Origin: a virus
IMG/VR virus record: IMGVR_UViG_3300037852_000143
Span: 1 to 49,879 of that record
Direction: 5' to 3' (one strand)
Length of the DNA stretch: 49,879 bases
The position numbers and the translations under genes were made by a program. Under the pieces are notes generated by a model, which worked only from the letters and a program-made list of their open reading frames with translations, ran no database searches and was not told the DNA's origin. Positions 3,145-40,622 of the stretch are shown here, piece by piece. Position 1 is the first letter of the stretch. Each line of letters starts with the position of its first letter.

Positions 3145-3158
3145 CGCCGGCGACTATC
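3142..3158 (-). promoter_or_regulatory. Late start element at minor tail gene
   Basis: Exact GATAGTCGCCGGCG abutting ATG 3144. Lies in the ~110-bp divergent region shared with the plus-strand gene at 3253. Confidence 0.88.
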
Positions 3159-3252: not shown

Positions 3253-3600
3253 ATGAGCGACTCGACCGGCCTCGTCCCCACCGGCGCGGCCGCCCCGTCG
3301 GCGCTCCCGAGCGAGCAGGTCGTGCTCGCAGCCCCGATGAGCTTCACCGGCAGCCTCGCCCGCATCCTCCAGCTGCACCTACCAGCCCGGACGAACAACC
3401 CCTACGGCCACATCGCCCTAATCGTGCTGGTCGTCGTGATGGTCACGCTCGCCTGGGTTTTGATTCTCGGCTGGTACACGATCTTCGGGCTGTTCGTCGT
3501 GCCCTACCGGCTGATCCGTCGTAGCCAGCGCAGAGATCTGCGCGACGCGCTGCAGCACCGCGAGCAGCTCGCTGCGCTCGAGCGCAATCAGCGCGCGTAG
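3253..3600 (+). CDS. Small single-pass or two-pass membrane protein, plus-strand gene inside tail operon
   Basis: 115 residues. Start ATG 3253 is preceded by a GAGAGGAAG Shine-Dalgarno site, unlike the flanking late genes. Residues ~1-50 are polar, followed by a long hydrophobic stretch (~54-85, rich in I, L, V, W and F) and a basic C-terminal tail with RRSQRRDLRDAL and a short helix. Its 3' end overlaps the convergent distal tail gene by 13 bases. Opposite orientation, its own promoter-like element and its membrane nature make it a candidate moron, for example a prophage-expressed superinfection or surface function. No family recognised. Confidence 0.72.
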   Translation: MSDSTGLVPTGAAAPSALPSEQVVLAAPMSFTGSLARILQLHLPARTNNPYGHIALIVLVVVMVTLAWVLILGWYTIFGLFVVPYRLIRRSQRRDLRDALQHREQLAALERNQRA

Positions 3601-5573: not shown

Positions 5574-5587
5574 CGCCGGCGACTATC
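5571..5587 (-). promoter_or_regulatory. Late start element at distal tail gene
   Basis: Exact core abutting ATG 5573. The tape-measure stop TGA overlaps it (TGATAG), so the element also supplies tandem stops. Confidence 0.88.
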
Positions 5588-8500: not shown

Positions 8501-10298
8501 TCTTGCTCGCGGCCTGGTGCGCGCTCGCGATTTCACCCGCCTTGCTCTGCGAGTCTGCGACCGCCGGCGTCAGGCCTTTACGGAAAGCGTCGACGGACTG
8601 CTGTGCCCCTTCGACGGACTTCGCGGCGTCGCGGAACTTGTTGCCGAACACGCCGAGGAAGTCGGCTTTGTCAGCGACGCGCAGGACATCGGCGAGCGCG
8701 CCCAGCAGGGTCGAGATGCCGCCGAGGAGAACATTGAGGGCGGCGTTAAACGCGACCTGCACCGCGCCCCATACGGCTTTCCAGACTTCGCTGAGGCCCT
8801 GCGCGGCGAGCTTGACCCCTCCGAGCGCGAGCTTCACGCCCTTGAGGCCGAGTTCGAGTGGTGCGAGCACCACCCCGCCGAGCCAGTAGAGGACGTCGCC
8901 GAGGGCTTTGACGGTGGCGTGGAAGCCTTTGCCGATGTTGTCCGTCACGATCAGTTCGCGGAACACGACGGCGAGCGCCGCGGAGATCGGGGCGAGGATC
9001 ACCATCAGCTTCAGCAGCGACGGCACCAGCGGTGCGATCGCGTTGACCCACGCCACGAACGCCTTGATCAGTTCGTTGACGTCCTTCGCGAATTCCGGGG
9101 TGGCCGTGAACTTCGCCATGCCGTCGAGCACATGGGTGAACGCTTCGGCGAGTTTCAGCATCGCCGGGCCCGCCGCGACCCCGAGATGCATGAACGCGAG
9201 CAGGAGATCGCCGAGGCCTTTGAGCATGATCGGCATCAGCGCCGCGAACTGCTGCGCGAGCTGCACCAGCAGCGCCTTGAACTGGGCGCTTTCCATCATC
9301 TTCAGCAGCGGCGCGAGGCCCCGCGCGATCCCGGAGAGGTCGATCTGCGCCATCCGCACGAGCGTCGGCAGCATCGCGGTGAACGTGTTCAGCAGGGGCG
9401 TGAGAACCTTGGCGAGCTGCGGCACGATCTTCAGCCCGGCGTCGTTCAGCGCCGAGTCGACGGCGCTCATGGACTTAGCGAGCTTGAGAGCTTCGGGGGA
9501 GCTCTCCTGCATTAGCTTGTTCAGGCGGGCCTGCGCGGCGACGATCTGCGGCGCCGTATTCGCGCGCGCGTGTTCGGCGAGGACGAGCCGGCCGTGCGCG
9601 GCGAGCGCCGCGGCGCTCGCGGGCCCGAACGCGGCGACCGCCGCGTTGTAGGCGTTCTGCGCCTTTTCGATCGCAGGCTGGTTTTTGCCGTACTGCTCCT
9701 GCGCGCTCCTCAGTTCCGTGTAGGCGGCCGACAGCTTGGCGATGTCGCCGAGCGCCGGGCGCACGAGCGTCATCAGCGGCAGCAGCCCGCCGAGCGCGAC
9801 CGTCGCGAGGCCTCCGCCGGCGAGCGCGCCCGCCCCGAGGATCGGTGGTCCGGCGACGCCGGCGACGGCCAGTGCGCCTGCGCCCGCGCCTGCGGCGGGC
9901 CCGGCACCGCCGATGGTGTTCAGGAGCCCCCCCACTCCGCCTCCGCCGCTGCCGCCGGCGCCGACGTCGCGCGCTGCGGCCCTAGCGTCCCTCGCGGCCC
10001 GCTCGATTCGGTTCAGCTCGGCGACCGATTTGTTGACCCCGTCGATGTCGCCGACGGCCCAGCCACGCTTGACGTTGTCCTTCAGCAGCTTCACGCGCGC
10101 GTCGAAGTTGTCGAGCGTGAGCTTCGCGGCGCCCGTGTCGATGTCGACGCGGACGCTGATCTCCTTGGGGACGTCCCTGAGCGCGTCTTTCAGGCCGCCG
10201 GGCCCGACGAGCTTCTTGATCGCCGTGTCGAGCTCTGAGCGGAACTGCGCAGCGGCCGCGACGATCTCGACGCGAATGGTCTCGGCGGTGTCGGTCAT
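5586..10298 (-). CDS. Tail tape measure protein with NlpC/P60-like and RlpA/DPBB-like domains
   Basis: 1570 residues, the longest gene. The N-terminal ~650 residues are helical and coiled-coil-rich with hydrophobic segments (e.g. ~100-185 and ~385-450) typical of tape measures, which set tail length. Residues ~730-835 look like an NlpC/P60 peptidase: YAWGGGHSG, then DCSGAV with the presumed catalytic Cys near 760, and THVYM with the presumed His near 802. Residues ~940-1010 resemble an RlpA-type double-psi barrel (GGRTITVPK, then RAIDLSYAANQALG). The C-terminal third is helical again. The two wall-active domains would open peptidoglycan as the tail enters. Starts at ATG 10298 on a late start element, downstream of the frameshifting chaperone. 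Confidence 0.92.
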   Translation of the reverse strand: MTDTAETIRVEIVAAAAQFRSELDTAIKKLVGPGGLKDALRDVPKEISVRVDIDTGAAKLTLDNFDARVKLLKDNVKRGWAVGDIDGVNKSVAELNRIERAARDARAAARDVGAGGSGGGGVGGLLNTIGGAGPAAGAGAGALAVAGVAGPPILGAGALAGGGLATVALGGLLPLMTLVRPALGDIAKLSAAYTELRSAQEQYGKNQPAIEKAQNAYNAAVAAFGPASAAALAAHGRLVLAEHARANTAPQIVAAQARLNKLMQESSPEALKLAKSMSAVDSALNDAGLKIVPQLAKVLTPLLNTFTAMLPTLVRMAQIDLSGIARGLAPLLKMMESAQFKALLVQLAQQFAALMPIMLKGLGDLLLAFMHLGVAAGPAMLKLAEAFTHVLDGMAKFTATPEFAKDVNELIKAFVAWVNAIAPLVPSLLKLMVILAPISAALAVVFRELIVTDNIGKGFHATVKALGDVLYWLGGVVLAPLELGLKGVKLALGGVKLAAQGLSEVWKAVWGAVQVAFNAALNVLLGGISTLLGALADVLRVADKADFLGVFGNKFRDAAKSVEGAQQSVDAFRKGLTPAVADSQSKAGEIASAHQAASKKIVESWGTALGATKKGIGEVNAAMLAELKSLNGGKVVPLSQGGPPLAPGLVALNKAGGGFVGRQGERGHDDVPLLVGRGEAVLHGGHQAIVNQSLARTGWKGGLGEVFSKTSGLHYNMAAGGFAGGGTGAMGAMVNEANQITSRHFPYAWGGGHSGFAGPYDCSGAVSAVLHAGGFLSAPEVSGEFESYGLPGPGAVTLYANPTHVYMSLDGHFFGTSASNPGGGAGWFSGAPRSGFAVRHVDPKGNTGGIGAASGGAGHIGPFKSGMTGAIGSVAQGAIDRATSAANAILSRMGGVPGGGGGAFGGPGQPNELVTASEFGGHNDPSAFGHPTASGAIANDSLWGFAELSEPPGSLNFSALGGLPMGSKIKVGYGGRTITVPKVDVGAGGPGIGGHIRAIDLSYAANQALGAPGLEDVSWARAAAGRLPKRPAAATKGKPPRKALQGQHPGTKRPPAHKQPKAPKARPLKVGGLLPSDIVAANVGIHSDEVGVANLGVAYKHLLDAQALVPTEALATLTDADVAFLDPGGHVDAAGNFIPGPLGYEAGDELVNAHGMTTGRFFGPGGIAGGKFIAGIDTRTGQISALESLLGRQDAAEGREEATEGRLVPKEQKAIVQRKTREARLRKFLTTNVARAAKVKEQVEALTTGNLKANLAAALSHSAIASRKGELSTHLRALHSELSAESLHQAGLSPLEKEPGYAASVKAQITGVSAALAAEGELSSRSGSSKAIAHAREAILKNSLGKQLRDLTGENVVLGGTGETVGEGGLIGKLGKQVVALRADQTTHNEHLGTIPGLRYELQQELGALAREQSALNAASPVQVRAKPAALQPGGAETNAQLLALVKQQLETTQRALATSQAQFSVFAGFEPLMAGRLVGTFAQGVDRVARTGPAMVHAGEVILPDPSGPFGNAAVAQARGGQPVEVVIVMANNEEPLMKIINAEIRGKSLRVVTDHAGQRSRLMAGVTR

Positions 10299-10312
10299 CG
10301 CCGGCGACTATC
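10296..10312 (-). promoter_or_regulatory. Late start element at tape measure gene
   Basis: Exact core abutting ATG 10298, about 20 bases after the stop of the chaperone frameshift product. Confidence 0.88.
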
Positions 10313-10332: not shown

Positions 10333-10910
10333 TTATCCGGTGGGGCTGCGGTGCATCTCGGCGAACACCTCGTGCTCCGTGCTGTCCCAGCTCTCGGGGT
10401 TGCGCTGCCCCCGTTCGGCGGTGATCGTCACGATGTGGTGGAACTCGCCGATCCCCATGGTCCGCCAGAAATGCGGCGGCCAGCTGTAGTGCTTACACAG
10501 CGAGAGGATCAGCGCGAGGTAGCCCGTGGCCTGCTCGGGCGGGGCTTGGAGGTCGTCCTCGCCTTCCGTTGCCGGCGAGCCGCCCTGTTCGGCGGCGGGG
10601 CTTCCCCCGGCGGCACCTGTCCGCCGTAGACGCTGCCGATGACCTGCACCAGCTGCTTCAAGCCGAGCGGCGGAAGCTTCTTCAGCGTCGGCTGGTGCAC
10701 CTGAAACAGCGCGACGATCTCCGCCGTGATCTCCTTGACGATCTCGTATTCATCCTCGCCAGCCTCGACACGCTGCTCGTACCCCTGAAAGCGGAAGAAC
10801 AGCTCCATCGGCAGGTCCCCGGGGAGCTTCCATACCTTGCCGTTGAGACGCACGCGCTTCGGTGCGGGCGCGAGAGCGTCAAGGTCGACGTCGACGGTGC
10901 TGTCGGTCAT
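10333..10910 (-). CDS. Tail assembly chaperone, long form by -1 frameshift (gpGT-like)
   Basis: Same start as the short form. A -1 shift at GGGGGAA (10602-10608) opens a frame that runs to TAA at 10333, giving about 192 residues. The new C-terminal part contains TGYLALILSLCKHYSWPP, then WRTMGIGEFHHIVTI, a convincing folded segment unlike the frame-0 tail. This layout (two overlapping products before the tape measure) is the conserved siphophage arrangement. Frame, stop and hand translation agree; slippage itself is inferred. Confidence 0.78.
10509..10910 (-). CDS. Tail assembly chaperone, short form (gpG-like)
   Basis: 133 residues read in frame 0 from ATG 10910. The N-terminal ~100 residues are helical (VRLNGKVWKLPGD, then LFFRFQGYEQRVEAGEDEYE) as in tail assembly chaperones placed between tail tube and tape measure genes. 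After the slippery site the frame-0 reading becomes a basic low-complexity tail ending RPRATSR, which I take as a by-product of the non-shifted reading. The chaperone coats the tape measure during tail assembly and is not expected in the virion. Confidence 0.8.
   Translation of the reverse strand: MTDSTVDVDLDALAPAPKRVRLNGKVWKLPGDLPMELFFRFQGYEQRVEAGEDEYEIVKEITAEIVALFQVHQPTLKKLPPLGLKQLVQVIGSVYGGQVPPGEAPPPNRAARRQRKARTTSKPRPSRPRATSR
10602..10608 (-). other. Programmed -1 ribosomal frameshift site
   Basis: GGGGGAA read as G-GGG-GAA in frame 0. The -1 frame stays open across this point and continues for ~90 codons past it, while frame 0 ends 31 codons later. Confidence 0.65.
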
Positions 10911-10924
10911 CGCCGGCGACTATC
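10908..10924 (-). promoter_or_regulatory. Late start element at tail chaperone gene
   Basis: Exact core abutting ATG 10910. Confidence 0.88.
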
Positions 10925-10929
10925 GGACA

Positions 10930-11004
10930 CGGTTTCAGAAACCGCGAACGCCGCCGGCCGGAGGGCGGTTGGCGGCGCTCAAGCAGCCCGGTTACCACAC
11001 CGGG
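10930..11004 (-). terminator. Two hairpins between tail tube and chaperone genes
   Basis: The ~90-bp gap holds CGGTTTCAGAAACCG (10930-10944, perfect 7+7 inverted repeat) and CCCGGT-N6-ACCGGG (10987-11004). They follow the tail tube stop. No T-run follows either, so termination or mRNA 3'-end protection is only inferred. The first lies just 5' of the late start element and could instead be an operator. Confidence 0.4.
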
Positions 11005-12071: not shown

Positions 12072-12419
12072 TCAGCTCACCGCCCCGGGGTCGTCCGCCG
12101 GTGGCGGGTCGACAGGCGGTGGCTCGTCGGGCGGCGCCGCGGCCGGCTCGGCGGGAGCCGTCTTGGCGGCTTTGGGTTTGCGGGCCCGTTTCGGTTTCCC
12201 CGCGACCGTCAGCGTGCGCTTGCCGTTCTCGTCGCACGGCTCCCAGTAGGCGGAGGCGTCGGCCTCCCCGCGGCTGACCGAGACGACGCTCTGATGTGGG
12301 ATGAGCTCGCCGCCCGGTCCCAGGACATCGCCCGGAAGGCCGACGAAGCCCTCGCCGAGGACGTTGCCGGCCGGCCCCACATACAGGGCGAACTCGGGTG
12401 CTGGTGCGGCTGGTGCCAT
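12072..12419 (-). CDS. Hypothetical small virion-region protein
   Basis: 115 residues, ATG 12419 on a late start element. Residues ~1-65 are compact (FALYVGPAGNVLGEGFVGLP, then VVSVSRGEADASAYW); the rest is a basic then proline-rich disordered tail (PKRARKPKAAKTAP, PPPVDPPPADD). Sits between the presumed tail terminator and tail tube genes, and its stop precedes the tube ATG by one base. Not recognised; a head-tail or tail-tube accessory role is only contextual. Confidence 0.65.
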   Translation of the reverse strand: MAPAAPAPEFALYVGPAGNVLGEGFVGLPGDVLGPGGELIPHQSVVSVSRGEADASAYWEPCDENGKRTLTVAGKPKRARKPKAAKTAPAEPAAAPPDEPPPVDPPPADDPGAVS

Positions 12420-12433
12420 CGCCGGCGACTATC
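12417..12433 (-). promoter_or_regulatory. Late start element at 115-residue gene
   Basis: Exact core abutting ATG 12419, 9 bases after the upstream stop TAG. Confidence 0.88.
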
Positions 12434-12442
12434 CGACGACGC

Positions 12443-12961
12443 CTATAGCTCCTCCCGCCTACACCAGATCTGCAGCATCGCCCAGCTCATCCACGTTTGC
12501 GGGGTCGCGGTCGACGCGAGGGTGGGGCCCCAGCTGACCCCGACCATGCCCGTCCCCCACGCCGCGAGAGGGCTTTCGACACCGAGCGTGCGGCCGGCCA
12601 GCACGACGCGCGTGATGGCCTGCATGTACCGGCGGAGCTGCCACGCGAGAATGTGCTGGTCGGGGTCCGAGCAGAAGCAGACGACGCCCATCGTGTGCTT
12701 GCCCGTCGCGGCCGACCCGGTGTCGTCCTCGAGCAGGCTAGCGGCATCCTCGATCCCGACCGTCGGGAACGCCGTCAGGAACGTGGGCGGCGGCACGAAG
12801 TCGAACACCTGTGCCGCTTCGATCGCGATCAACGACGCTTTCTCGTCCGCACGGGTGACGCCTGCGGCGATCGCCGCGATCTCAGCGTTGAGCTGCGCCG
12901 GATCCTGCAGCCGCGCCATTAGCGCGTACACGATCGGCTCGGTCAGCTGATAGTTGCCCAT
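12443..12961 (-). CDS. Probable tail terminator / neck protein
   Basis: 172 residues, ATG 12961 on a late start element. The N-terminus YQLTEPIVYALMARLQDPA resembles the helical start of neck and tail-terminator proteins. The middle holds a beta-rich segment with MGVVCFCSDPDQHI. Position between connector and tail completion genes and the tail tube supports the role. Its start lies 80 bases inside the 3' end of the methyltransferase reading frame. Assignment rests on order and size. Confidence 0.55.
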   Translation of the reverse strand: MGNYQLTEPIVYALMARLQDPAQLNAEIAAIAAGVTRADEKASLIAIEAAQVFDFVPPPTFLTAFPTVGIEDAASLLEDDTGSAATGKHTMGVVCFCSDPDQHILAWQLRRYMQAITRVVLAGRTLGVESPLAAWGTGMVGVSWGPTLASTATPQTWMSWAMLQIWCRREEL

Positions 12962-13823
12962 CGCCGGCGACTATCGGGGCCGTGACGCGGGCGACCATCA
13001 CCCCGTCCTGGCCGAGCACGATCCCATCCAGCTTCCCCCGCCCGGCCAGCAGCTCATGGAACCCCGCGGGCGTGAACGCGCGGACATGGCCCTTCGGCTC
13101 GACAACCCACCAGGCAGGAAGGTCGCCACCCTCGACCGCGCCCGCGGGGGTGCTGAAGTACGCGGCGCCGCCGGGCTTCAGCACGCTGAAGACCGCGGCG
13201 ACCGTCTCCGCCGGGTCGGGCACATGCTCGAGCACCTCGAAGCAGACGACATGGTCGTACCCGTCTTTCGGTCGTAGGTCGCGGGTGAGGCGCTCGCAGT
13301 CGTTGATGTTCCCCACGAGGAACCGTGATCCGGGGACGTCGCGCGCGATCGCGCGGTCGACGCAGTCGGGGTTCAGATCGATCCCGTGGTAGGTCACGGT
13401 ACGCAGTAGGTTCCTCGCCAACCAGCCGTCGTTGCATGAGCAATCGAGGAGGACGGGGAGCTGCCCGTCCGCGGCGATCACGTGCTTCTCTTTCAGCGCG
13501 TTGTGGAGCAGTTCGACCCTGGGCAGGTACTCGTGGGCCTTCGCGGCCTGGATCCCGTACTGGTCCTCGAAAGGCCGCTCATGCGCGTTCGTGGCGTAGT
13601 AGTGCGCGTACGCGCTGGGGCCGTGGGTGATGTGGGACACCATCGCCTCCTGGTCCTCCCGGGCCCGGTCGACCGCCGGGTGGCCCTCCTCGAGGAAGAA
13701 CGGCACGCACTCCTGCATGAGCGTGTTGGCCTTCAGGTTCTCGTCATGGCGGACGAGGATCTCGCGGAGCTCGAGCAGCAGCTGCTCGGCGCGCATCTCG
13801 ACGAACCACAGGGCACCCGGCAT
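12882..13823 (-). CDS. SAM-dependent methyltransferase, class I, with N-terminal linker module
   Basis: 313 residues. The Rossmann methyltransferase core begins near residue 125: LLDCSCNDGWLA (motif I), then HGIDLNPDCV with the acidic SAM-binding position, then VVCFEVLEHVPDP (EVLEHV is typical of Methyltransf_11 types). Residues ~25-115 form a helical module (QECVPFFLEEGHP, then YAHYYAT) that recurs at the C-terminus of the GT2 protein at 20227-21663. The last ~30 residues (from PIVAGDG onward) are encoded by the late start element of the next gene and look like read-through tail. Substrate unknown; probably modifies phage glycans or a host surface component. Start ATG 13823 has no clear Shine-Dalgarno site; ATG 13796 is an alternative. 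Confidence 0.8.
   Translation of the reverse strand: MPGALWFVEMRAEQLLLELREILVRHDENLKANTLMQECVPFFLEEGHPAVDRAREDQEAMVSHITHGPSAYAHYYATNAHERPFEDQYGIQAAKAHEYLPRVELLHNALKEKHVIAADGQLPVLLDCSCNDGWLARNLLRTVTYHGIDLNPDCVDRAIARDVPGSRFLVGNINDCERLTRDLRPKDGYDHVVCFEVLEHVPDPAETVAAVFSVLKPGGAAYFSTPAGAVEGGDLPAWWVVEPKGHVRAFTPAGFHELLAGRGKLDGIVLGQDGVMVARVTAPIVAGDGQLSADRADRVRANGAAAGSGAAQR
12959..12975 (-). promoter_or_regulatory. Late start element at presumed tail terminator gene
   Basis: Exact core abutting ATG 12961, embedded in the 3' coding end of the methyltransferase gene. Confidence 0.87.
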
Positions 13824-13848: not shown

Positions 13849-14589
13849 TCAGCGCTCGGTGATGACGTCGGCTTCGCCTTCCTCCTGCAGGAGCCGGTCG
13901 AGCGTCGCGGCCGGCATCTTGACGCGCTCGGGGTAGCCGCCGGGCCCCCACGAGTTCAGGAGGTCGGGGTCGCCATTGGTGACGCCGAGCGTCGCGAGCA
14001 CGTCCTGTGCGGTCGTCGCCCACCGGTAGGCCTTCACGACCGGGTAGCGCCCGGGCGCCTTTGCCTGCCAGGCGCTGCGGAGGGCGTGCGTGCCGTCCTG
14101 GTAGTGGATGCCCCATTTCACGAGCGCCTGCAGCACGCCCCGGTTGGTCGCCCCTTCGCCCTCGGGGAAGCTCCCTTCGGCGCGCCTGGCGTCGTCATAG
14201 AGCCAGAATGCGTCGAACGTGCGGCCATACACGAGGGAGAGCACGCGGGCGTGCCCGAACCCCTCACAGGCGCCCTCCTGCCCCTGGTCGTAGAACGCGT
14301 AGAACGCGCGGATGTCGAGCTCGTGGTTCGGGAGCGCCGGGTCGGGGGCGGGCTCGAGGCAGAAGCAGTGCCCGCCGCGGATGTTGCCGAGCTGCTCGCC
14401 TTTCGCGACGTCCGGCAGCCGGACCGTGCCGTCGGCTTCCTGGATTGGCGTGTCGAAGCTGTCGTACCAGTTGACGCCGATCGCGACGGGCACGTGCTTC
14501 GGACGCGCCTCGACCGGTAGGGCGGTCAGCGGGTACTTGGCGACATGATCGAAGTCGGGTGGAACGTTGCGGCCGAGAGCGCCTGGCAT
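13849..14589 (-). CDS. Papain-like cysteine peptidase family protein of phages
   Basis: 246 residues, ATG 14589 on a late start element. Contains DQGQEGACEGFG (~residues 99-110), matching the C1-peptidase segment around the catalytic Cys, and LLNSWGPGGYP (~210-220), matching the Asn-Ser-Trp-Gly motif. No His lies where papain would have it before the Asn motif. A His occurs instead upstream of the Cys (RGGHCFCLEP), which I recall as typical of this actinophage family. It could process virion proteins or act on host wall proteins. Peptidase activity is plausible, not certain. Lies between tail completion and methyltransferase genes. Confidence 0.68.
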   Translation of the reverse strand: MPGALGRNVPPDFDHVAKYPLTALPVEARPKHVPVAIGVNWYDSFDTPIQEADGTVRLPDVAKGEQLGNIRGGHCFCLEPAPDPALPNHELDIRAFYAFYDQGQEGACEGFGHARVLSLVYGRTFDAFWLYDDARRAEGSFPEGEGATNRGVLQALVKWGIHYQDGTHALRSAWQAKAPGRYPVVKAYRWATTAQDVLATLGVTNGDPDLLNSWGPGGYPERVKMPAATLDRLLQEEGEADVITER

Positions 14590-14603
14590 CGCCGGCGACT
14601 ATC
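14587..14603 (-). promoter_or_regulatory. Late start element at peptidase-like gene
   Basis: Exact core abutting ATG 14589; the stop TGA of the upstream gene overlaps its first bases. Confidence 0.88.
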
Positions 14604-15160: not shown

Positions 15161-15574
15161 TCAGAGTTCCATGTTGCGGGTGAAGAAAGGTGTGGCGTAT
15201 GGGGCGACGCGCGCGAAGTTCTCGCCGCCGAGCCTGGGCGCGTCGACGAGCTGCACGGTGCCCTTGATGAGCTCGGTGCGGGCCTGTTCCCACGCCGCGA
15301 CGGCTTCCTTCGCGTCCGCGGATACCTGCGCGGATTTCTCGACCTGCGCCCACGCCCCGATCGTCACGATCCGCTCCAAGAGCTTCAGGCTGATCGTGGC
15401 ACTGGTGGGGACGGGGACCTGGTAGCCGTCGCCGCCGAGGATCCCGTCGACCTCGGCCTGGGCGTGTTCGAGGAACATCTGAACCTGCGACGCGTTCGGG
15501 ATGCTGGTGGCGGTGAAGACGCGCTTCGCGGCGATCGCCGCCACATGCGAGAGGGTGGCGTAGACGGGGCTCAT
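15161..15574 (-). CDS. Head-tail connector (adaptor, gp6-like)
   Basis: 137 residues. The helical N-terminus YATLSHVAAIAAKRVFTATS, then VQMFLEHAQAEVDGILGG, resembles the adaptor family that forms the ring below the portal. Its start ATG 15574 overlaps the stop of the Ig-like gene by one base (TAATG). Followed directly by the tail completion gene. Family call from sequence feel and gene order. Confidence 0.62.
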   Translation of the reverse strand: MSPVYATLSHVAAIAAKRVFTATSIPNASQVQMFLEHAQAEVDGILGGDGYQVPVPTSATISLKLLERIVTIGAWAQVEKSAQVSADAKEAVAAWEQARTELIKGTVQLVDAPRLGGENFARVAPYATPFFTRNMEL

Positions 15575-15867
15575 TAGAACTGGCTCTGCGCGACGGTGAA
15601 GAACGTCTCGCCGGCGGCGACTACGGCCCCGGCGCCTTCCGCGCGGTAGTACCAGGTGCACGCGGTGCCGCCGGCGGCCTCGGTGATCGTGATGTCTTGG
15701 TGGAACACGCCTGTCGCGTCTTTCGTCGGCGCTTCGTAGTTGGTGACGGCGCCTTCGCCGTTCTTCACCTTGAACTTGACGGTCGTCGGTTCCGCGGGTT
15801 CGCCGGCGGCGTTGGTGAACGTCGCCTTGAGCCGTACCTGCTGACCGGACACGTATTGGGAGGCCAT
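15574..15867 (-). CDS. Ig-like small virion protein
   Basis: 97 residues, ATG 15867 on a late start element with one extra base. Pattern QVRLKATFTNAAGEPAEPTT, then TGVFHQDITI, then TWYYRAEG ending FFTV is a single beta-sandwich (Ig-like) unit of a kind common in actinophage virion operons upstream of the adaptor. Probably decorates the particle or neck. Precise role unknown. Confidence 0.68.
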   Translation of the reverse strand: MASQYVSGQQVRLKATFTNAAGEPAEPTTVKFKVKNGEGAVTNYEAPTKDATGVFHQDITITEAAGGTACTWYYRAEGAGAVVAAGETFFTVAQSQF

Positions 15868-15882
15868 GCGCCGGCGACTATC
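15865..15882 (-). promoter_or_regulatory. Late start element at Ig-like gene
   Basis: Exact core plus one C before ATG 15867; the upstream stop TGA overlaps GATAG. Confidence 0.87.
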
Positions 15883-16661: not shown

Positions 16662-17231
16662 TCACACCGGGTTCGCCGGCCCGTCCGCCAGCGCGCACGC
16701 GTACAGCGGGCTGTCGCGCAGCAGCGTCGCACCGTCGACGACTTCGGCTTCCGCCGTTTCCGTTTCCAGGTCGATGTACCAGGCGTCGAGCACGTCGAAC
16801 GTCGTCGCCGTGACGGACGCTTCGGCGACCGCCGCGAGTTCTTCGATCTGGCCCTGCGTCAGCGCGCCCGCGTGCGTGATCGTGCGCCACGCCGCCGCGG
16901 ACGCGGCGAAGTTCGAGCTGAACGTGCCGAGGCTGCCCGCTTCGAGTTTCAGCGTGACTTTGCCGCCCGTCCCCACACCGAGGTAGGCGTGCAGCGTGAT
17001 CCCGAGCACGATCTCGCCGCCGAGCAGCACGTAGTTGTCGACCCGGACCTTCTCGTTGTTGCCGCTCGGCTTGTTTTCCACGCCCGACGCGGTCAAAGCC
17101 GCGGGCGTTTCCGGGTCGAGGATCCCCAGCTTCTTCTCGTGTTCCCAGTGCGGTTTGCCGTCCGCCGGGAACGCGGTCCACCCCGACTTCACCGACGAGC
17201 GCGGGTACAGGATCCGGTGGTTGACGCCCAT
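16662..17231 (-). CDS. Virion-associated beta-rich protein, possible lectin-like partner
   Basis: 189 residues, ATG 17231 overlapping the GNAT stop by one base. Its last ~60 residues (AWYIDLETETAEAEVVDGAT, then LLRDSPLYACALADGPANPV) share the style of the neighbour's end (DGATKLRDAP, then LADSPVNPT), so the two are probably paralogous or share a C-terminal module. Central segment contains GEIVLGITLHAYLGVGTGGK. Role unknown; fibre or decoration protein by context. Confidence 0.55.
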   Translation of the reverse strand: MGVNHRILYPRSSVKSGWTAFPADGKPHWEHEKKLGILDPETPAALTASGVENKPSGNNEKVRVDNYVLLGGEIVLGITLHAYLGVGTGGKVTLKLEAGSLGTFSSNFAASAAAWRTITHAGALTQGQIEELAAVAEASVTATTFDVLDAWYIDLETETAEAEVVDGATLLRDSPLYACALADGPANPV

Positions 17232-17755
17232 CAGAAAACATCTTCAGGGCGCGGCAGCGCCGCCCGCCACGCCGGTTCGCTCGCCGGCGGCGACCCGGCC
17301 GCGACCCACGCCAGGTATTCGTGCGGCCGGTCGGATGGGATCGGGCAGCCCCACTCGCCGTTGGGGAGCTCGTGGAAGCCGGACAGCCGCAGCGTGTTCT
17401 CGGCGACGGACCCCGGCTGTGCGCTCATCGTGTGGCGGCGGATCCCGAGCGTTGGCCACCACGGCTCCAGCCCGACCATCAGGTGCAGCAGCAGCCCTTT
17501 CCCCCTGAACGCCGGTTCGACGCCGAGATACGCGCAGTGGACCTGCAGCGGGAAATATTCGAGGCGGTACACCCCGATCGGCAGCCCTTTCCCCGTCGTC
17601 CACGTCACCTCCACGTAGACGCTGCCGCGCTCGGTGACCACTTCGGTGACCACCGTTTTCGACAGCGGGAACGGGCCCGCGAGCGACACCAGCAGGGCGA
17701 ACGCCGCGGCGGTGCCCGGGCCGTAGAGGATGTCGAGCGGCGGGGTCTGGGCCAT
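17231..17755 (-). CDS. GNAT-family acetyltransferase-like protein
   Basis: 174 residues, ATG 17755 on a late start element. The central LGVEPAFRGKGLLLHLMVG (~residues 77-95) matches the acetyl-CoA-binding R-x-x-G-x-G motif of GNAT enzymes, preceded by beta strands (SVYVEVTWTTGK, then VYRLEYFPLQVH). The C-terminus has a short Pro-rich tail. Substrate unknown; next to glycosyl- and methyltransferases it may modify sugars or proteins on the particle or host surface. Confidence 0.68.
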   Translation of the reverse strand: MAQTPPLDILYGPGTAAAFALLVSLAGPFPLSKTVVTEVVTERGSVYVEVTWTTGKGLPIGVYRLEYFPLQVHCAYLGVEPAFRGKGLLLHLMVGLEPWWPTLGIRRHTMSAQPGSVAENTLRLSGFHELPNGEWGCPIPSDRPHEYLAWVAAGSPPASEPAWRAALPRPEDVF

Positions 17756-17769
17756 CGCCGGCGACTATC
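17753..17769 (-). promoter_or_regulatory. Late start element at GNAT gene
   Basis: Exact core abutting ATG 17755. The TAG inside GATAG is the stop codon of the upstream methyltransferase-glycosyltransferase gene. Confidence 0.88.
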
Positions 17770-22020: not shown

Positions 22021-22034
22021 CGCCGGCGACTATC
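22018..22034 (-). promoter_or_regulatory. Late start element at XRE gene
   Basis: Exact core abutting ATG 22020. This copy is not attached to an upstream stop codon: ~335 bp of non-coding DNA precede it. Confidence 0.9.
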
Positions 22035-22369
22035 GGACCGCGAACGGCGTTTCAGTAACGCGCTCTCACACGCCGCGTGTGCCTGTGAGGGTGGCTGTCG
22101 GGTAGCCACACGCCAGTGGAGGGCGTCCTGGGCAGGCTGTGTGCCCTCTCGCGCGCGATTCGCCCCTACCGGAGGATGCGCGGAACCGCCCACGGCGTCC
22201 GTTTGTCATCATCTACCGTGGGAATCGGGTCCCGCCGTGCGACCCCTGGATCGCCGGCGGGACCTTTGCCTGCGCAAGACATTGCGCGCAGTCAACGTTC
22301 ACAGTACACCCCTCGTGCGGCGTCGTCGCGACACCTGTCAACGGATTGGACTAGTCCCGAGACGTGGGG
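22035..22369. other. Non-coding head/tail boundary region rich in inverted repeats
   Basis: No convincing reading frame on either strand. Holds GTGGCT-N7-AGCCAC (~22091-22109), CACACG-CCG-CGTGTG (~22067-22081), GCGCAA-N4-TTGCGC (~22273-22288), and the larger stem 22228-22264. Likely the transcriptional punctuation between head and tail operons, and possibly an operator region for the XRE protein encoded next to it. Confidence 0.55.
22228..22264 (-). terminator. Strong hairpin downstream of head genes
   Basis: GGTCCCGCCG and CGGCGGGACC form a perfect 10-bp stem with a 17-base loop, about 105 bases past the stop of the last head gene. No T-run follows on the minus strand (TTTGCC follows on the plus strand). 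Confidence 0.5.
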
Positions 22370-24754: not shown

Positions 24755-25363
24755 GCGCCGGCGACTATCCGACGCGGCATCCCGCGCTAGCTCCATCACC
24801 CGGGCACTCGCGTGCGCGCGAGCGCGCGAGGCCTGCTTGCGCTGCTTCCGGTTCTTCTTGCCCTCCACGGTCGCGACGCCATCGAACGGGTCGCGCGAGA
24901 GCGACAGGGTCGGCATGTCCTGCCTGAGCACCGGCCGGTTCGTAAGCGCCGCGCCCAGGAGGGCCTTGCCGTGGCCGACCTTGTGCTCGTCGACGTAGTT
25001 CTCGACGAACGTCGGGCTGATGTAGAGGTACTCGCGGTCGCGGACCTGCTTGGCGCCCGCGGGGGTGAACTCGACAGCAGCCTGCACCTTCTTGCCCTGC
25101 TGCGAGAGTCCCGTGATCCACGCGGAGGCCTTCGTGCCCTTGCCGCGGTCTGAGGAGTGGTCGGCATCGATCGAGACACGGCCGCCGAACACCTCGCTGA
25201 GGTTGCGTTTCCAACCGTCGACGTCGGCCTGGGTGATCCCGAACTTCCCGTAGCGAGGGTCGTGGAGGTTGTTGTCGAGCCTGGCGACGGTGATCGTCGT
25301 GCGGGGCGATGGGTCGTCCCCGGCCAGCTCGGGGAGGTCGGCGAGAGTGATCAGGTCGGGCAT
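24131..25363 (-). CDS. Head maturation protease - scaffold fusion (Mu gpI-like)
   Basis: 410 residues, ATG 25363 on a late start element. Residues ~1-165 resemble Mu-type protease: GWKRNLSEVFGGRVSIDADH with the likely catalytic His, then AVEFTPAGAKQVRDREYLYI, SPTF and LTNRPVLRQDMP. A basic hinge (KNRKQRKQASRARAHASARV) follows. Residues 204-410 are a charged helical scaffold (LAKQMGLDEDADHA, then a KKLAKKTKKKGRKL core). An internal copy of the late start element lies in frame at residues ~198-204 (SDSRRR-M) and would make the scaffold alone from ATG 24754. Same logic as lambda C/Nu3, where a nested in-frame start makes scaffold. Confidence 0.85.
   Translation of the reverse strand: MPDLITLADLPELAGDDPSPRTTITVARLDNNLHDPRYGKFGITQADVDGWKRNLSEVFGGRVSIDADHSSDRGKGTKASAWITGLSQQGKKVQAAVEFTPAGAKQVRDREYLYISPTFVENYVDEHKVGHGKALLGAALTNRPVLRQDMPTLSLSRDPFDGVATVEGKKNRKQRKQASRARAHASARVMELARDAASDSRRRMDLKELAKQMGLDEDADHATVLAAVAAIEVPTTDTDTTAADKAAKDAKAAKKLAKKTKKKGRKLMGLSAKETAKLLSDANAGQAASVQLAEQTFDTEFAKTLSEGRVGPDQEDTLRALFRENPDLAVKTLKSLHRIIPMTPRGSGDGGTEALAAPAGVDQDRFQLHREAIERAKTLAKEQDISPDEAYALAAIELDEQHAEQAARGF
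24752..24769 (-). promoter_or_regulatory. Internal late start element within protease-scaffold gene
   Basis: Exact core plus one C before ATG 24754, inside an open reading frame, at the protease/scaffold domain border. Confidence 0.85.
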
Positions 25364-25379
25364 GTCGCCGGCGACTATC
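25361..25379 (-). promoter_or_regulatory. Late start element at protease-scaffold gene
   Basis: Core followed by AC and ATG 25363, extending the palindrome to GTCGCCGGCGAC. Divergent from the plus-strand promoter at 25403. Confidence 0.88.
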
Positions 25380-27941: not shown

Positions 27942-28255
27942 GCGCGTGGGTCGGACCACTGGCCGGGCAGCGTGCCCTGTTGTGCGCTCGTCACCCAGAG
28001 GGTGTCGTTGCCGTCGAGGAGCAGCTGCCCGTTGACAGGCGTGCCCTCTGTTGGCGCGCCGGGTGTGCCCCAGACGCGGACGATGATCATCGGGAGGACT
28101 TCGCCCTCCTCGGCGCTGTTGCCGGTGTGGGCGACGACGCCGCTGTTGCCCTTGGCGACCTGGGAGATCTGTGCGTCCTTGCGGCGCTTGTTGACCTGCT
28201 CGGCGCAGTGGGCGGTGAGGCGGAGGTGGACGATGCGGCCGACGCTGGGGATCAC
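27938..28255 (-). CDS. Conserved hypothetical phage protein (IPSVGRIVH family)
   Basis: 105 residues, GTG 28255; the G of the start codon is the last base of the late start element. The N-terminus IPSVGRIVHLRL, then WGTPGAPTEGTPVNGQLLLD, then LPGQWSDPRA, matches a short family common in actinophages and prophages, of unknown function. Confidence 0.7.
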   Translation of the reverse strand: MIPSVGRIVHLRLTAHCAEQVNKRRKDAQISQVAKGNSGVVAHTGNSAEEGEVLPMIIVRVWGTPGAPTEGTPVNGQLLLDGNDTLWVTSAQQGTLPGQWSDPRA

Positions 28256-28268
28256 GCCGGCGACTATC
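28253..28268 (-). promoter_or_regulatory. Late start element at GTG-start gene
   Basis: GATAGTCGCCGGCG followed by TG: the final G of the core forms the GTG start, the shortest spacing seen. Confidence 0.87.
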
Positions 28269-32684: not shown

Positions 32685-32699
32685 GCGCCGGCGACTATC
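32682..32699 (-). promoter_or_regulatory. Late start element at portal gene
   Basis: Exact core plus one C before ATG 32684. Confidence 0.88.
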
Positions 32700-33391: not shown

Positions 33392-33408
33392 GGTCGCCGG
33401 CGACTATC
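33389..33408 (-). promoter_or_regulatory. Late start element at SixA-like gene
   Basis: Core followed by ACC and ATG 33391, among the longest core-to-start spacings of the set. Confidence 0.87.
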
Positions 33409-34770: not shown

Positions 34771-34786
34771 CGCGCCGGCGACTATC
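34768..34786 (-). promoter_or_regulatory. Late start element at PLD gene
   Basis: Core followed by CG and ATG 34770; upstream stop TGA overlaps GATAG. Confidence 0.88.
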
Positions 34787-37476: not shown

Positions 37477-37891
37477 CGCCGGCGACTATCACCGCGAGCG
37501 GGTCGCCCGTTTCAGAACCCTTCACCTCGACGTGTTGGCCGGGCTTGCCGTACACGCGGTCGAGCAGCCGCTCGTACACGGCGATGCGGGCGGCGTGATC
37601 GGGGACGTCGGACACGTTGACCTCGCCCTCGTACTTCGCGACGAGCACGCTCGAGCGTGCCGCCTCGAAGTACGCGTCGACGAGCTCGACCAGGCGCTCC
37701 TCGACGAGCTCACGCATTCGGGTGTGGGGCGGCGGGAGCCGCGGCCGCCCCGACCCGGGTTGGGGGCCGCCGAAACCTCTCCTATCCTCACCTTTCCTCA
37801 CGTGCGCCAGGCACGTGTCGGCGTCCTTCAGCGGCGGTGACTTGCACCGCTTGCCCGCCTTGGTCTTGCTCTTGCATCGCCGCCGTGCCAT
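37403..37891 (-). CDS. Terminase small subunit-like protein with N-terminal zinc motif
   Basis: 162 residues, ATG 37891 on a late start element. The N-terminus CKSKTKAGKRCKSPPLKDAD, then TCLAH, is a compact Cys/His zinc motif, followed by FGGPQPGSGRPR, a typical terminase small subunit signature. Helical middle: RMRELVEERLVELVDAYFEA, then AVYERLLDRVYGKP. The C-terminus (from VIVAGDD) is partly encoded by the terL start element. Recognises the packaging site and activates TerL. Confidence 0.8.
   Translation of the reverse strand: MARRRCKSKTKAGKRCKSPPLKDADTCLAHVRKGEDRRGFGGPQPGSGRPRLPPPHTRMRELVEERLVELVDAYFEAARSSVLVAKYEGEVNVSDVPDHAARIAVYERLLDRVYGKPGQHVEVKGSETGDPLAVIVAGDDPAARKAASDAARELLRQLVPRP
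37474..37490 (-). promoter_or_regulatory. Late start element at terL, inside terS
   Basis: Exact core abutting ATG 37476. Read in the terS frame it encodes VIVAGDD. Confidence 0.88.
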
Positions 37892-38015
37892 CGCCGGCGA
37901 CTATCGGAGGCAGGTTGATCCGCCCGTGGTCGCGGTCGAGCTTGAGGAACGCGTGGCCGCACTCCGGGCAGGTGACGGGGTGCGCCTTGAATGCCGGCTC
38001 GGGCGGCTCATGCAC
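37788..38015 (-). CDS. Small zinc-finger-like protein overlapping terS
   Basis: 75 residues, ATG 38015. Residues 1-37 (PAFKAHPVTCPECGHAFLKL, then DRDHGRINL) look genuine, with one C-x-x-C pair. From residue ~37 the frame is the terS start element (PIVAGDG) and then terS out of frame, giving a low-complexity tail. The functional part may be only the first half. Overlaps terS by 104 bases. Confidence 0.5.
   Translation of the reverse strand: MHEPPEPAFKAHPVTCPECGHAFLKLDRDHGRINLPPIVAGDGTAAMQEQDQGGQAVQVTAAEGRRHVPGAREER
37889..37905 (-). promoter_or_regulatory. Late start element at terS
   Basis: Exact core abutting ATG 37891; read in the upstream frame it encodes PIVAGDG. Confidence 0.88.
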
Positions 38016-38244
38016 AGCGCTCCAGCGCCTGGGCCTCGCGATAGAGCCGGTTACGCGCGGCCGCCTCGCTTTTCACGCGCGGCAGTTCACGGACCATGTC
38101 CAGCCGCGCCGCTGCGGCGTCGGTCGGTGTGCGCGCGAACAGGAACCGATCGAACGCGGCGAGGTACGCGCGGGCGCCGTCGGTGAGCTCGGGGACATCG
38201 TGGTCGCCCGGCCCTCGCATGGCGCGCGGCAAGTAGCCGGTCAC
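38008..38244 (-). CDS. Small hypothetical protein in sigma-like gene cluster
   Basis: 78 residues, GTG 38244 overlapping the HTH gene stop (GTGA) and its own end overlapping the next ATG by 8 bases. Helical: ELTDGARAYLAAFDRFLFAR, then VKSEAAARNRLYREAQALER. Not recognised. Coupling to the two upstream genes suggests a shared role. Confidence 0.6.
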   Translation of the reverse strand: MTGYLPRAMRGPGDHDVPELTDGARAYLAAFDRFLFARTPTDAAAARLDMVRELPRVKSEAAARNRLYREAQALERCA

Positions 38245-38471
38245 GATCGTCCCTGACGGTCGCCCTGGTCCAGGAGCTCGGCAGCCCTCTTCACGCGCGC
38301 CTCGGCAATCCTCAGCGCCGGCGCGCTCGCGGTGGCGAGCTGTCGCGCGATTTCGCTGCGGCGGTAGCCGGCGGCCTGCAGCACGGCGACCTGCTGAGCG
38401 AGCTTAATCTCGGGCTCCAGGTCCTGGATTAGCGCGCGGCGCAGACGGGAGAGGAACTCGCTGGCCATCAC
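38241..38471 (-). CDS. Small HTH protein, possible sigma region-4 partner
   Basis: 76 residues (GTG 38471 or ATG 38468). Helix-turn-helix: KLAQQVAVLQAAGYRRSEIA, then RQLATASAPALRIAEARVKR, AAELL. The spacing and the final RVKRAAELL helix recall sigma region 4.2 (e.g. EIAxxLgxsxxTvxxrxxRArxxL), but no diagnostic residue proves it. Translation is coupled to the sigma-2-like gene by GTGA overlap. A separate region-4 protein would parallel split sigma systems such as SigO-RsoA. Alternative: ordinary HTH, e.g. a DNA-binding packaging protein. Confidence 0.55.
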   Translation of the reverse strand: MMASEFLSRLRRALIQDLEPEIKLAQQVAVLQAAGYRRSEIARQLATASAPALRIAEARVKRAAELLDQGDRQGRS

Positions 38472-38872
38472 GCCGCCGTCCGTTCGGCGGGGACGAACTC
38501 GCGGAGCACGCGCGCCCTGGCGAGCTCGCCCTCGCGCTCCTCACTGATCTCGGTGTGGCCATTGGATGGTGTGGCGAGCTCGTCGAGCGACAGGGTCGCG
38601 GCGTCGTACTGCCAGCACCGCCGGCCGGTGCTCGAGTCGGTAACGTACCGGTGCTCGGGGTGCCACCGGTGCCACGCGTCCCCGAGGCGCCGCGGGAGGA
38701 ACATGCTGGCGTAGCCTGAGAAGCGGCCGGCCTGGGTGTCGATGCCGGGCCGGGCTGGGAGGGGCTTGTAGCGGGCGGCGAGCTCGAGGAGGATGACGAG
38801 GCCCTCGGCGAGGAGCTCCTCCCGCTCGTCGTGGTCGTAGCGGATCCTGGCGGCGTCGACTGTGCGCTGCAC
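38468..38872 (-). CDS. Sigma-70 region-2-like protein
   Basis: 134 residues from GTG 38872 with GAGG six bases upstream; the frame is open further 5' (LTPTRILDIANAEAF) but lacks a common start codon. HDEREELLAEGLVILLELAA, then RYKP, then GRFSGYASMFLPRRLGDAWH, RWHPEHRYV match the sigma region 2.2-2.4 pattern (D-L-x-Q-E-G-x-x-A-L, then F-S-x-Y-A-x-x-x-I-R). Region 2.4 binds the -10 element. No region 4 in this polypeptide. It sits at the junction between early and late regions, the right place for a late-gene activator. Family call is by eye. Confidence 0.65.
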   Translation of the reverse strand: MQRTVDAARIRYDHDEREELLAEGLVILLELAARYKPLPARPGIDTQAGRFSGYASMFLPRRLGDAWHRWHPEHRYVTDSSTGRRCWQYDAATLSLDELATPSNGHTEISEEREGELARARVLREFVPAERTAA

Positions 38873-38945
38873 GAACGCCTCGGCGTTGGCGATGTCGAGG
38901 ATCCGCGTGGGGGTGAGGAGAAGGCCCAGGGGTGCCGTTCGCTTG

Positions 38946-38982
38946 CGACCGCCCCCCTTGCTTGTCCGTGGGGGGGCGGTCG
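38946..38982 (-). terminator. GC-rich hairpin at early/late boundary
   Basis: CGACCGCCCCCC pairs perfectly with GGGGGGCGGTCG (12 bp, 13-base loop). Lies between the degenerate start element and the sigma-like gene, 115 bases after the last early gene. No U-run follows. Terminator of the early operon or attenuator in the sigma-gene leader. Confidence 0.5.
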
Positions 38983-38994
38983 TCGGTGACTATC
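38981..38994 (-). promoter_or_regulatory. Degenerate late start element upstream of sigma-like gene
   Basis: GATAGTCACCGACG: keeps GATAGT and 12 of 14 core bases but no start codon follows. If a promoter, the transcript would have a ~110-base leader with the hairpin 38946-38982. Confidence 0.6.
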
Positions 38995-39300: not shown

Positions 39301-40622
39301 GTCTGCACGGCCAGCTGGTATTCGTCGCCGCGCTGCCCGAATGTCGACGCCACCGCGTTCCTCGCCGTGAAGGCCTGGGGTTCACCGCGAGACCCGTCCG
39401 CACGCAGCGGTCGCAAGTGCGGGTCGACCCGCAGCATGTAGTTGTGAAACGAGCCGTCTGGCTCCGGGCTCGAGTTCACCACCTCGACAGCGAGCAGCGG
39501 CTCGTCGCCAGGCAGGTCCGTGCACCAGAGCTTCCCCCACTCGTCCTCGTGCAGGAGCTTGGCGCCGCTCTCGCGGATATAGCGGTCCTGGCCGAACCGC
39601 TCGAGCATGATGCGCCTGACCTCGAGGTTCTCCTCGTCACGGATCTCCGGGACGGTCAGCGTCTCGGGATGCTCGACGATCTGCTCGGTGAGCCGGCGTC
39701 CGTGGATCGCCCAGACACCCCAGCCGTCGCGGTAGGCGACCGCCGGCCCAGTGTCGTTGTGGAGCTGGCCCTCGTCGTCGCGGTGGAGCGCCGTTGGGCG
39801 CTCGCTCAAGACGACGGCGCCTTTCAGCGCCCAGAACCAGCCGCCGCCGGCGCGGAGCAGCTTGCACCATAAGCCGAGCTGGCGTTTGGAGATCGCGTCG
39901 TAGCGGACGCCCCACCGTTGGGCGAAGTCGTAAAACGCAACCCACCCCCAGCGCCACCCCCAACGCCAACCTCGTGTGACCTTAAACAGCTGCGAGCCCA
40001 GCTGCGAGCCCAGCTGCGAGTCCAGCTGCGAGTCCAGCTGCGAGTCCAGCTGCGAGCCCAGCTGCGAGTACAGCTGCGAGTCCAGCTGCGAGCCCAGCTG
40101 CGAGCCCAGCTGCGAGTCCAGCTGCGAGTCCAGCTGCGAGTCCAGCTGCGAGTACAGCTGCGAGTACAGCTGCGAGTACAGCTGCGAGCCCAGCTGCGAG
40201 TACAGCTGCGAGTCCAGCTGCGAGTCCAGCTGCGAGCCCAGCTGCGAGTCCAGCTGCGAGCCCAGCTGCGAGTACAGCTGCGAGCCCAGCTGCGAGTCCA
40301 GCTGCGAGTCCAGCTGCGAGTCCAGCTGCGAGTACAGCTGCGAGCCCAGCTGCGAGTCCAGCTGCGAGCCGGAGGTCACAATCCGGCGCAGCGCCAGGTG
40401 CAGCGCGGCGGTCCCGAGCGCGGCCCTCCATGGCGAGTCGAGCCAGAACACGAGCGGCGGCGGCTCGCCGATCTCCGTGTACATGTCACGGATCGCCGAC
40501 GTCGCCGCGTCGCGGTCGGCTGGGCTCGTGGAGAGCCCAGCCGTCATCCAGTCCTCGCGCGCGGGCGCGAGGAGTGCTTGCTTCGCGCGCGACACCTTCG
40601 TGATCTTCTTGATGGGCGGCAT
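39297..40622 (-). CDS. DUF6745-like protein with 32 internal XSQL repeats
   Basis: 441 residues from ATG 40622. N-terminal helical part (PAREDWMTAGLSTSPADRDA, then WLDSPWRAALGTA), then residues ~85-212 are 32 tandem tetrapeptides X-Ser-Gln-Leu with X = Asp (14), Gly (11) or Tyr (7). The C-terminal half has the family signature: NDTGPAVAYRDGWGVWAIHG, VRRIMLERFGQDRYI, WCTDLPGDEPLLAVEVVNSS, TARNAVASTFGQ. Overlaps its partner's stop by one base. Function unknown in the family. Confidence 0.75.
   Translation of the reverse strand: MPPIKKITKVSRAKQALLAPAREDWMTAGLSTSPADRDAATSAIRDMYTEIGEPPPLVFWLDSPWRAALGTAALHLALRRIVTSGSQLDSQLGSQLYSQLDSQLDSQLDSQLGSQLYSQLGSQLDSQLGSQLDSQLDSQLYSQLGSQLYSQLYSQLYSQLDSQLDSQLDSQLGSQLGSQLDSQLYSQLGSQLDSQLDSQLDSQLGSQLGSQLFKVTRGWRWGWRWGWVAFYDFAQRWGVRYDAISKRQLGLWCKLLRAGGGWFWALKGAVVLSERPTALHRDDEGQLHNDTGPAVAYRDGWGVWAIHGRRLTEQIVEHPETLTVPEIRDEENLEVRRIMLERFGQDRYIRESGAKLLHEDEWGKLWCTDLPGDEPLLAVEVVNSSPEPDGSFHNYMLRVDPHLRPLRADGSRGEPQAFTARNAVASTFGQRGDEYQLAVQT
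39987..40370 (-). repeat. 12-bp coding tandem repeat, 32 units
   Basis: Minus-strand unit NNC-TCG-CAG-CTG where the first codon is GAC, GGC or TAC; the other nine bases are invariant through all 32 copies. Encodes (D/G/Y)SQL. The extreme uniformity points to recent expansion or gene conversion. Confidence 0.95.

Follow-up and report, generated by a model that had tools for sequence, protein, structure and literature searches.

How the late genes of this phage are switched on is the question raised by two small overlapping genes lying between its early genes and its terminase genes. The DNA analyzed (the window) is an IMG/VR virus record of 49,879 bases with 69% GC, the left 38 kb of which carries the terminase, portal, head protease and tape-measure genes on the minus strand; the best matches of its large terminase subunit (TerL) share ∼34–40% identity and come from mixed hosts. 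A sequence-only reading of this DNA had proposed that the pair encodes a split sigma factor, which would direct polymerase to GATAGT promoters of the late genes. Both ORFs were located on the minus strand as that reading had placed them, at 38468–38872 for the sigma-region-2-like protein (S2) and at 38241–38471 for the small HTH protein (HTH), with the 4-base GTGA overlap at 38471–38468. Its placement of the pair exactly between the early genes and terS needs correcting, as two small ORFs (38008–38244 and 37788–38015) intervene before terS. Elsewhere in the window, positions 39982–40431 form a long array of short near-identical repeats, one minus-strand frame of which reads SQLDSQLGSQLY.

Five further IMG/VR phages were found to encode S2 and HTH (L002, L086, L201, L203 and L226, six with the window), the nearest relative being L002 at 70% identity by protein search. 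L086 and L041 were fetched by a scan of viral contigs for the DNA motif only, with no protein used; L086 was then found to encode S2 and HTH, as was the contig of L041, which is that of L203. L201 came from a profile search and L226 from a degenerate DNA pattern for LPRRLGDAW, and L226 also has the GATAGTC motif. L222 (GC 50%) was discarded as a relative, its LPRRLGDAW being a chance match. Collection-wide protein and pattern scans yielded no further pair-bearing contigs, tblastn of phage records gave no significant match to the pair, scans of GTDB genomes gave 217 pattern matches and 0 relatives, and the pair was present in 0 of the 80 viral loci obtained by TerL alignment.

The GTG at 38872, from which S2 had been read, is a doubtful start. 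The aligned codon in L002 is GTC, homology with L002 begins ∼19 codons before this GTG and runs upstream to ∼38929, and the two genomes share a CTG at the matching position (38929 in the window, 7941 in L002). The frame is open upstream as far as a TAG at 38992. On the basis of the GTC codon, the earlier homology and the shared CTG, comparison of the sequences makes CTG 38929 the likely start, giving an S2 gene at 38468–38929 (minus strand) with homology in the five other phages.

The sigma-2-like pattern that had been noticed in S2 is real, in that EELLAEG-x-ILLELAARYKP ... GRFSGYA-x-FLPRRLGDAW is strongly conserved across the relatives, the conserved stretch reading E-x-EEL-x-x-x-G-x-x-IL-x-x-LA ... 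G-RFSG-x-A-x-x-FLPRRLGDAWH. A six-row S2 profile was compared using hhalign with region 2 of FliA (two), WhiG, RpoD, RpoS and RpoH. The match scored 28.0 (probability 43%), with regions 2.2 and 2.3 in the correct register. None of 150 column shuffles reached this value (shuffle maximum 21.7), shuffled S2 columns against sigma2 reached at most 20.5, terminase-piece decoys at most 14.3, and S2 against sigma4 and HTH against sigma2 both remained at background. The S2 profile is slightly nearer to region 2 of RpoD/RpoS/RpoH than to that of the flagellar type. T4 gp55, a proven sigma, scored only 13.1 against sigma2 in the same test, below the 28.0 of S2, so the distance of S2 is compatible with its being a sigma. 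Profile probabilities for the sigma matches of S2 and HTH were about 43–55%. Scans of S2 against Pfam, NCBIfam and PHROGs gave no match above cut-off, the PF04542 model had no match in the window or in L002, L086, L201 and L203, and an HMM search of PDB sequences with the S2 and HTH profiles returned no sigma match.

Structure prediction, which had been suggested as a check, gave a divided result: the core helices of S2 are confident and sigma factors are among its compact matches, yet all Foldseek E-values exceed 0.01. The AF2 model of S2 (mean pLDDT 67.5) has a helical core of good confidence, then a β-hairpin and then a low-confidence tail, with pLDDT 81–89 for residues 11–50 and 84–85 for residues 71–90. 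The few compact matches from the PDB included SigE (TMt 0.64 to its N-terminal domain), WhiG (3.5 Å) and sigma28, and rank 1 of that search was a non-sigma protein. Against the viral library, sigma-B/F/G of Bacillus phage Deep Blue (3.4 Å over 76 columns, 28% identity, probability 0.85) had the highest probability among the matches listed, in which rank 1 is unnamed, and four more named sigma factors fell within the first 23 rows. A P/L-S-L/F-D stretch after the domain is, we assume, reminiscent of region 3.2; the S2 residue aligned with Q406 of sigma70, which we take to be a β′ contact, is mostly Ala. The likeness of S2 to sigma-2 is well supported, and the sequence-based case that the two are related is good but not decisive.

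The second ORF was confirmed as a good HTH; the claim that it resembles region 4 in particular did not separate from a LuxR-type assignment. Its AF2 model consists of a long helix plus an HTH (mean pLDDT 92.6), and Foldseek returned LuxR-type and TrpR folds. By hhalign, HTH scored 24.0 against sigma4 (0 of 150 shuffles, shuffle maximum 16.6; probability 44% with all profiles and 55% with ECF only) and 24.4 against the LuxR HTH (probability 39%); one control calls for caution, since HTH scored 21.3 against the sigma2 profile in reverse. No Pfam, PHROGs or NCBIfam model matched HTH above cut-off. The fold is therefore clear and the family is not, because the sigma4 and LuxR profiles both match. 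The case for region-4 identity is mainly the position of HTH directly after S2 in six phages, and HTH is a plausible region-4 partner of S2.

The candidate targets of the pair were then mapped. The window contains 21 copies of GATAGT, all but one of them on the minus strand, as compared with 5.0 ± 2.2 (maximum 11) in shuffled sequence. Of the 20 minus-strand copies, 19 immediately precede an ATG or GTG, and the remaining one is the S2 copy. The minus-strand element GATAGTCGCCGGCG precedes the terS-like gene (37892–37905, ATG 37891), the terminase large subunit gene (37477–37490, ATG 37476), an ORF starting at 33391 (33395–33408), the portal gene (32686–32699, ATG 32684), the head maturation protease gene (25366–25379, ATG 25363) and the tape-measure gene (10299–10312, ATG 10298). 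It also precedes ORFs 17231–17755 (17756–17769), 15574–15867 (15869–15882), 13849–14589, which is peptidase-like (14590–14603), 12443–12961 (12962–12975), 12072–12419 (12420–12433), 10509–10910 (10911–10924), 3588–5573 (5574–5587) and 1531–3144 (3145–3158). Further start-associated copies on this strand lie at 34773–34786, 24756–24769 and 22021–22034, a copy at 28255–28268 overlaps a GTG start, and the variant GATAGTCGCCGACG is start-associated at 1505–1518.

The motif stands before genes, mostly late genes, in 6/6 phages, which together hold 80 GATAGTC sites, 77 of them on the late strand. An ATG follows 5–10 nt downstream in 67/80 sites versus ∼5% of random positions, with a modal spacing of 7 nt (exactly 7 in 37/67), and a Shine-Dalgarno (SD)-like 4-mer is present in only 9/67 of the motif genes. 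The conserved element is G-Y-C-N-GATAGTC (C at −2 in 60/67, G at −4 in 46/67); the window copies end in CGCCGGCG, a tail that the other phages do not strictly conserve. Between −40 and −12, every column stayed at or below 0.14 bit, and hence there is no fixed −35 element; the sites have the near-fixed distance to gene starts and the missing −35 of a −10-only late promoter. TTCTGAAA was considered as a −35 and rejected, as its distance varies; it fits the palindromic operator described below. The link between array and pair was also examined in 50 contigs chosen solely by one exact motif copy, in which the pair was checked in the fetched pieces of the other contigs. Only two had arrays, of 12 and 13 one-strand start-linked copies, and both were known pair encoders; the remaining contigs had at most 2 copies per strand, two records >180 kb being set aside. 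Because GATAGTC arrays were found only in pair-bearing phages, the pair probably turns on the late genes.

The degenerate element reported upstream of S2 is present: GATAGTCACCGACG at 38981–38994 (minus strand) has an exact GATAGTC core, 2 mismatches to the window consensus GATAGTCGCCGGCG and equivalents in four relatives. These read GATAGTC in L002, GATACTC in L086 and L203, and GATAATC in L201, and no copy was found upstream of S2 in L226. The proposal that this copy gives weak or self-feeding expression of S2 thus holds in outline, inasmuch as a copy or near copy stands in front of S2 in 5/6 phages. In L086, L201 and L203, the motif precedes a leader ORF of 18–19 codons; these leader ORFs (MPRCKSFPGQLHLTGQGLA, MPCNPFPGQLRLIGRERA and MDLCNLPAAQLVRRGAEFQ, respectively, with GATA[CA]TC) end right before the TTG start of S2. 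In the window, the motif is followed directly by a 12-bp GC-rich hairpin (38944–38983, minus strand; folding energy of the 70-nt RNA, −29.8 kcal/mol, z −1.7), which could serve attenuation or termination; its L002 counterpart is weaker (z +0.9), so that conservation of the hairpin is unsupported. Also upstream of S2, a tyrosine-recombinase-like gene of L086 (10324–10899, minus strand) starts directly after a GATAGTC, as do those of L201 and L203, and in these phages the array therefore reaches beyond strictly late genes.

A second element, the palindrome GTTTCWGAAAC, adjoins a subset of the motif copies, on both sides and at repeated spacings, with centers at approximately −12, −19, −24 and +22 to +25 from GATA. 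On the minus strand of the window, the palindrome GTTTCTGAAAC at 10932–10942 lies 18 bp upstream of the GATAGTC at 10924, and the palindrome-like GTTACTGAAAC (22049–22059) and GGTTCTGAAAC (37509–37519) lie 25 bp upstream of a GATAGTC and 29 bp upstream of the terL GATAGTC, respectively; palindrome-like sites also occur in L002, L086, L201, L203 and L226. Sixteen palindromes were counted near motif sites for a genome-wide density of 0.12 per kb, an enrichment that is descriptive because the palindrome was defined from the same data. GTTTCWGAAAC resembles an operator site, to which a second regulator would bind.

The split-sigma proposal draws support from the sigma-2 likeness of S2 and from the joint occurrence of pair and array in 6/6 phages, and is weakened by the ambiguous family of HTH. 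On balance, we consider it probable that S2 and HTH form a very divergent phage two-subunit sigma that takes host polymerase to near-leaderless late promoters lacking a −35. In this model, the β′ coiled coil of RNA polymerase would be the docking site of S2, which would melt the −10-like element G-Y-C-N-GATAGTC, and HTH would replace sigma region 4 on the β flap. The resulting holoenzyme would initiate late transcription at ∼20 sites, with GATAGT ∼8 nt before the ATG, producing late mRNAs that are near-leaderless and without a −35 element, and the switch would feed itself through the element copy that precedes S2. Polymerase binding, S2–HTH binding, promoter recognition, leaderless transcription and autoregulation are the inferred parts of this model. 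A transcriptional role for the motif is favored because it co-occurs with a sigma-like pair, because bases upstream of its core are conserved, because palindromes cluster around its copies as operators do at promoters, and because its GATA resembles the flagellar-type −10 GCCGATAA (PMC8325347). If transcription starts at the A of the ATG, a −10 element would be expected slightly closer to it than the 8 nt that separate GATAGT from the ATG.

Whether S2 and HTH are made as two proteins or one bears directly on this model. As in a two-subunit sigma, they are separate neighboring genes that are conserved together in 6/6 phages. The HTH gene of the window begins at a GTG-ATG of its own, which overlaps the S2 stop, and lies in the other frame. 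In L002, a LAGLIDADG homing endonuclease gene (8402–8962, minus strand) sits exactly between S2 and HTH on the opposite strand, making a single chain unlikely there. A location of the endonuclease gene within a group I intron was rejected, as its ORF occupies nearly the entire gap, and an Rfam search of the gap found no intron and chance matches only. In L086, L201, L203 and L226, the HTH frame is +1 relative to S2, whose tail it overlaps, and the SLD-to-HTH distance is 103–109 nt; codon statistics show S2 coding handing over directly to HTH coding in the window and the other contiguous-pair phages. No ATG, GTG or TTG was found within 48 codons upstream in the HTH frame of L201, L203 and L226, whereas L086 has a GTG 21 codons upstream. 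Since the usual start codons are absent, these three relatives need +1 frameshifting (candidate sites at L201 ∼7957–7985, L203 ∼3737–3765 and L226 ∼1300–1345) or an unusual start, and the term "split" may fail for some members. One explanation is that S2 and HTH are a single +1-frameshifted chain, an ordinary compact sigma2–sigma4 protein of ECF-like layout; the split seen in the window would then be derived or result from the annotation. The +1 frame in four relatives, three of them without a usual start codon, and the near-constant spacing in all four speak for it; the window HTH with its own start in a different frame, the interrupted pair of L002 and the L086 GTG speak against it, as does the fact that no conserved slippery site was identified and that an internal CTG start is possible. 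We regard a single chain, which is partly compatible with the two-subunit reading, as doubtful. Equally tentative is a sigma that lies between one chain and two, made from separate cistrons in the window and L002 but as a +1 frameshift product in L201, L203 and L226, and reading in every case −35-less GATAGTC promoters that put the transcription start on the ATG; if so, a single GATAGTC element would fix both the transcription and the translation starts of the late regulon.

The remaining explanations move the reading of the motif away from a phage sigma. GATAGTC might instead be a translation-start element of the mRNA, read by the ribosome or by an RNA-binding protein that S2/HTH either is or is unrelated to. 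The start-associated sequences (SAS) of cluster K mycobacteriophages, which share GATAG and the location, provide a parallel (PMC3203893). The motif occupies the SD position, 5–10 nt before the ATG in genes with an SD-like 4-mer in just 9/67, so a translational role has to be weighed seriously, and some copies lie inside the upstream gene. Unlike the SAS, which contain AGGAG, GATAGTC is not complementary to the 3′ end that 16S rRNA usually has; positions −4 to −2 are conserved as well, DNA-type palindromes cluster at the sites, and the co-occurring protein is sigma-2-like rather than RNA-binding. Together, these points make a translation element unlikely. As an operator or stoperator, the motif would be bound by a phage repressor or activator (HTH, with or without S2) while host sigmas carry out transcription. 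The stoperators of L5 and other cluster A phages do act in transcription regulation (mentioned in PMC3203893). HTH fits LuxR-type DNA-binding domains, and the palindrome, being a separate element, points to one or more further regulators that bind DNA. Stoperator positions are not tied to start codons, unlike the 67/80 sites lying 5–10 nt from an ATG, the motif lacks symmetry and its A-T-A-x-T core is −10-like, and an operator leaves S2 unexplained; we judge this distinctly unlikely. Finally, S2 and HTH could bind host polymerase or sigma as an anti-sigma, appropriator or antiterminator, and an appropriated host sigma would then read the motif. Phages commonly have such factors, and S2 could resemble sigma through mimicry. 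The conserved residues of S2 nevertheless include the region 2.3-like FSGYA, the predicted −10 contact, and the motif mismatches the TANNNT −10 of actinobacterial housekeeping promoters, a consensus that may not be that of the host. This appears highly unlikely.

If the two-subunit sigma is borne out, it would add another phage lineage with a two-part late sigma, one in which no sequence relation to T4 gp55 can be detected, and would offer a compact orthogonal sigma–promoter pair for GC-rich bacteria as well as a promoter element that doubles as a start-codon marker. The pair brings with it 10–20 candidate target promoters per genome and a six-member family for comparison. It would also be a testable precedent for a transcriptional reading of the cluster K SAS, which were described in 2011 and whose role was still unclear in 2024 (PMC3203893, PMC11373665).

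Among known systems, the SAS resemble the sites described here in being oriented copies of a short GATAG-containing motif just before an ATG; they comprise 11–19 copies of the 13-bp GGGATAGGAGCCC, mostly in one orientation and typically 3–7 bp before the ATG (PMC3203893). They differ in that SAS lie in the non-structural half of the genome and contain AGGAG (PMC3203893), whereas the GATAGTC sites stand before late structural genes, mostly without an SD, in company with a sigma-like gene pair. With the motif GYCNGATAGTC, an SD-like 4-mer in 9/67 and late structural genes downstream, these sites fall outside the SAS. The flagellar/WhiG sigmas FliA and WhiG recognize a −35 TAAA and a −10 GCCGATAA (PMC8325347); S2 aligns with their region 2 (E-LL-A-G ... 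F-YA ... R), and GATA is common to their −10 element and GATAGTC, but they are one chain and use a −35 element, unlike S2/HTH. SigO–RsoA of Bacillus subtilis, the analogue from bacteria, is a two-subunit sigma in which SigO carries sigma4 and RsoA sigma2 (PMC8103513). The proposed S2/HTH would likewise place sigma-2 and sigma-4 on separate cooperating proteins; SigO–RsoA is, in contrast, a cellular system, and the likeness is one of layout.

T4 gp55–gp33, a late sigma with its co-activator, has been termed a split sigma and uses promoters that need no −35 recognition (PMC2988020). In contrast to what is proposed for HTH, T4 gp33 does not recognize specific DNA, and no similarity of its sequence to sigma is discernible (PMC2988020). 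T4 also differs in using the sliding clamp as activator, and a comparison of S2 with T4 gp55 gave no clear profile match. The T4 gp55 and gp33 genes are not adjacent. Both systems are phage-encoded and consist of two small proteins, with a sigma-2-like part and, as proposed for S2/HTH, a separate stand-in for domain 4; both would serve late genes from promoters without a recognized −35. T4 gp55–gp33 is the closest phage analogue of S2/HTH.
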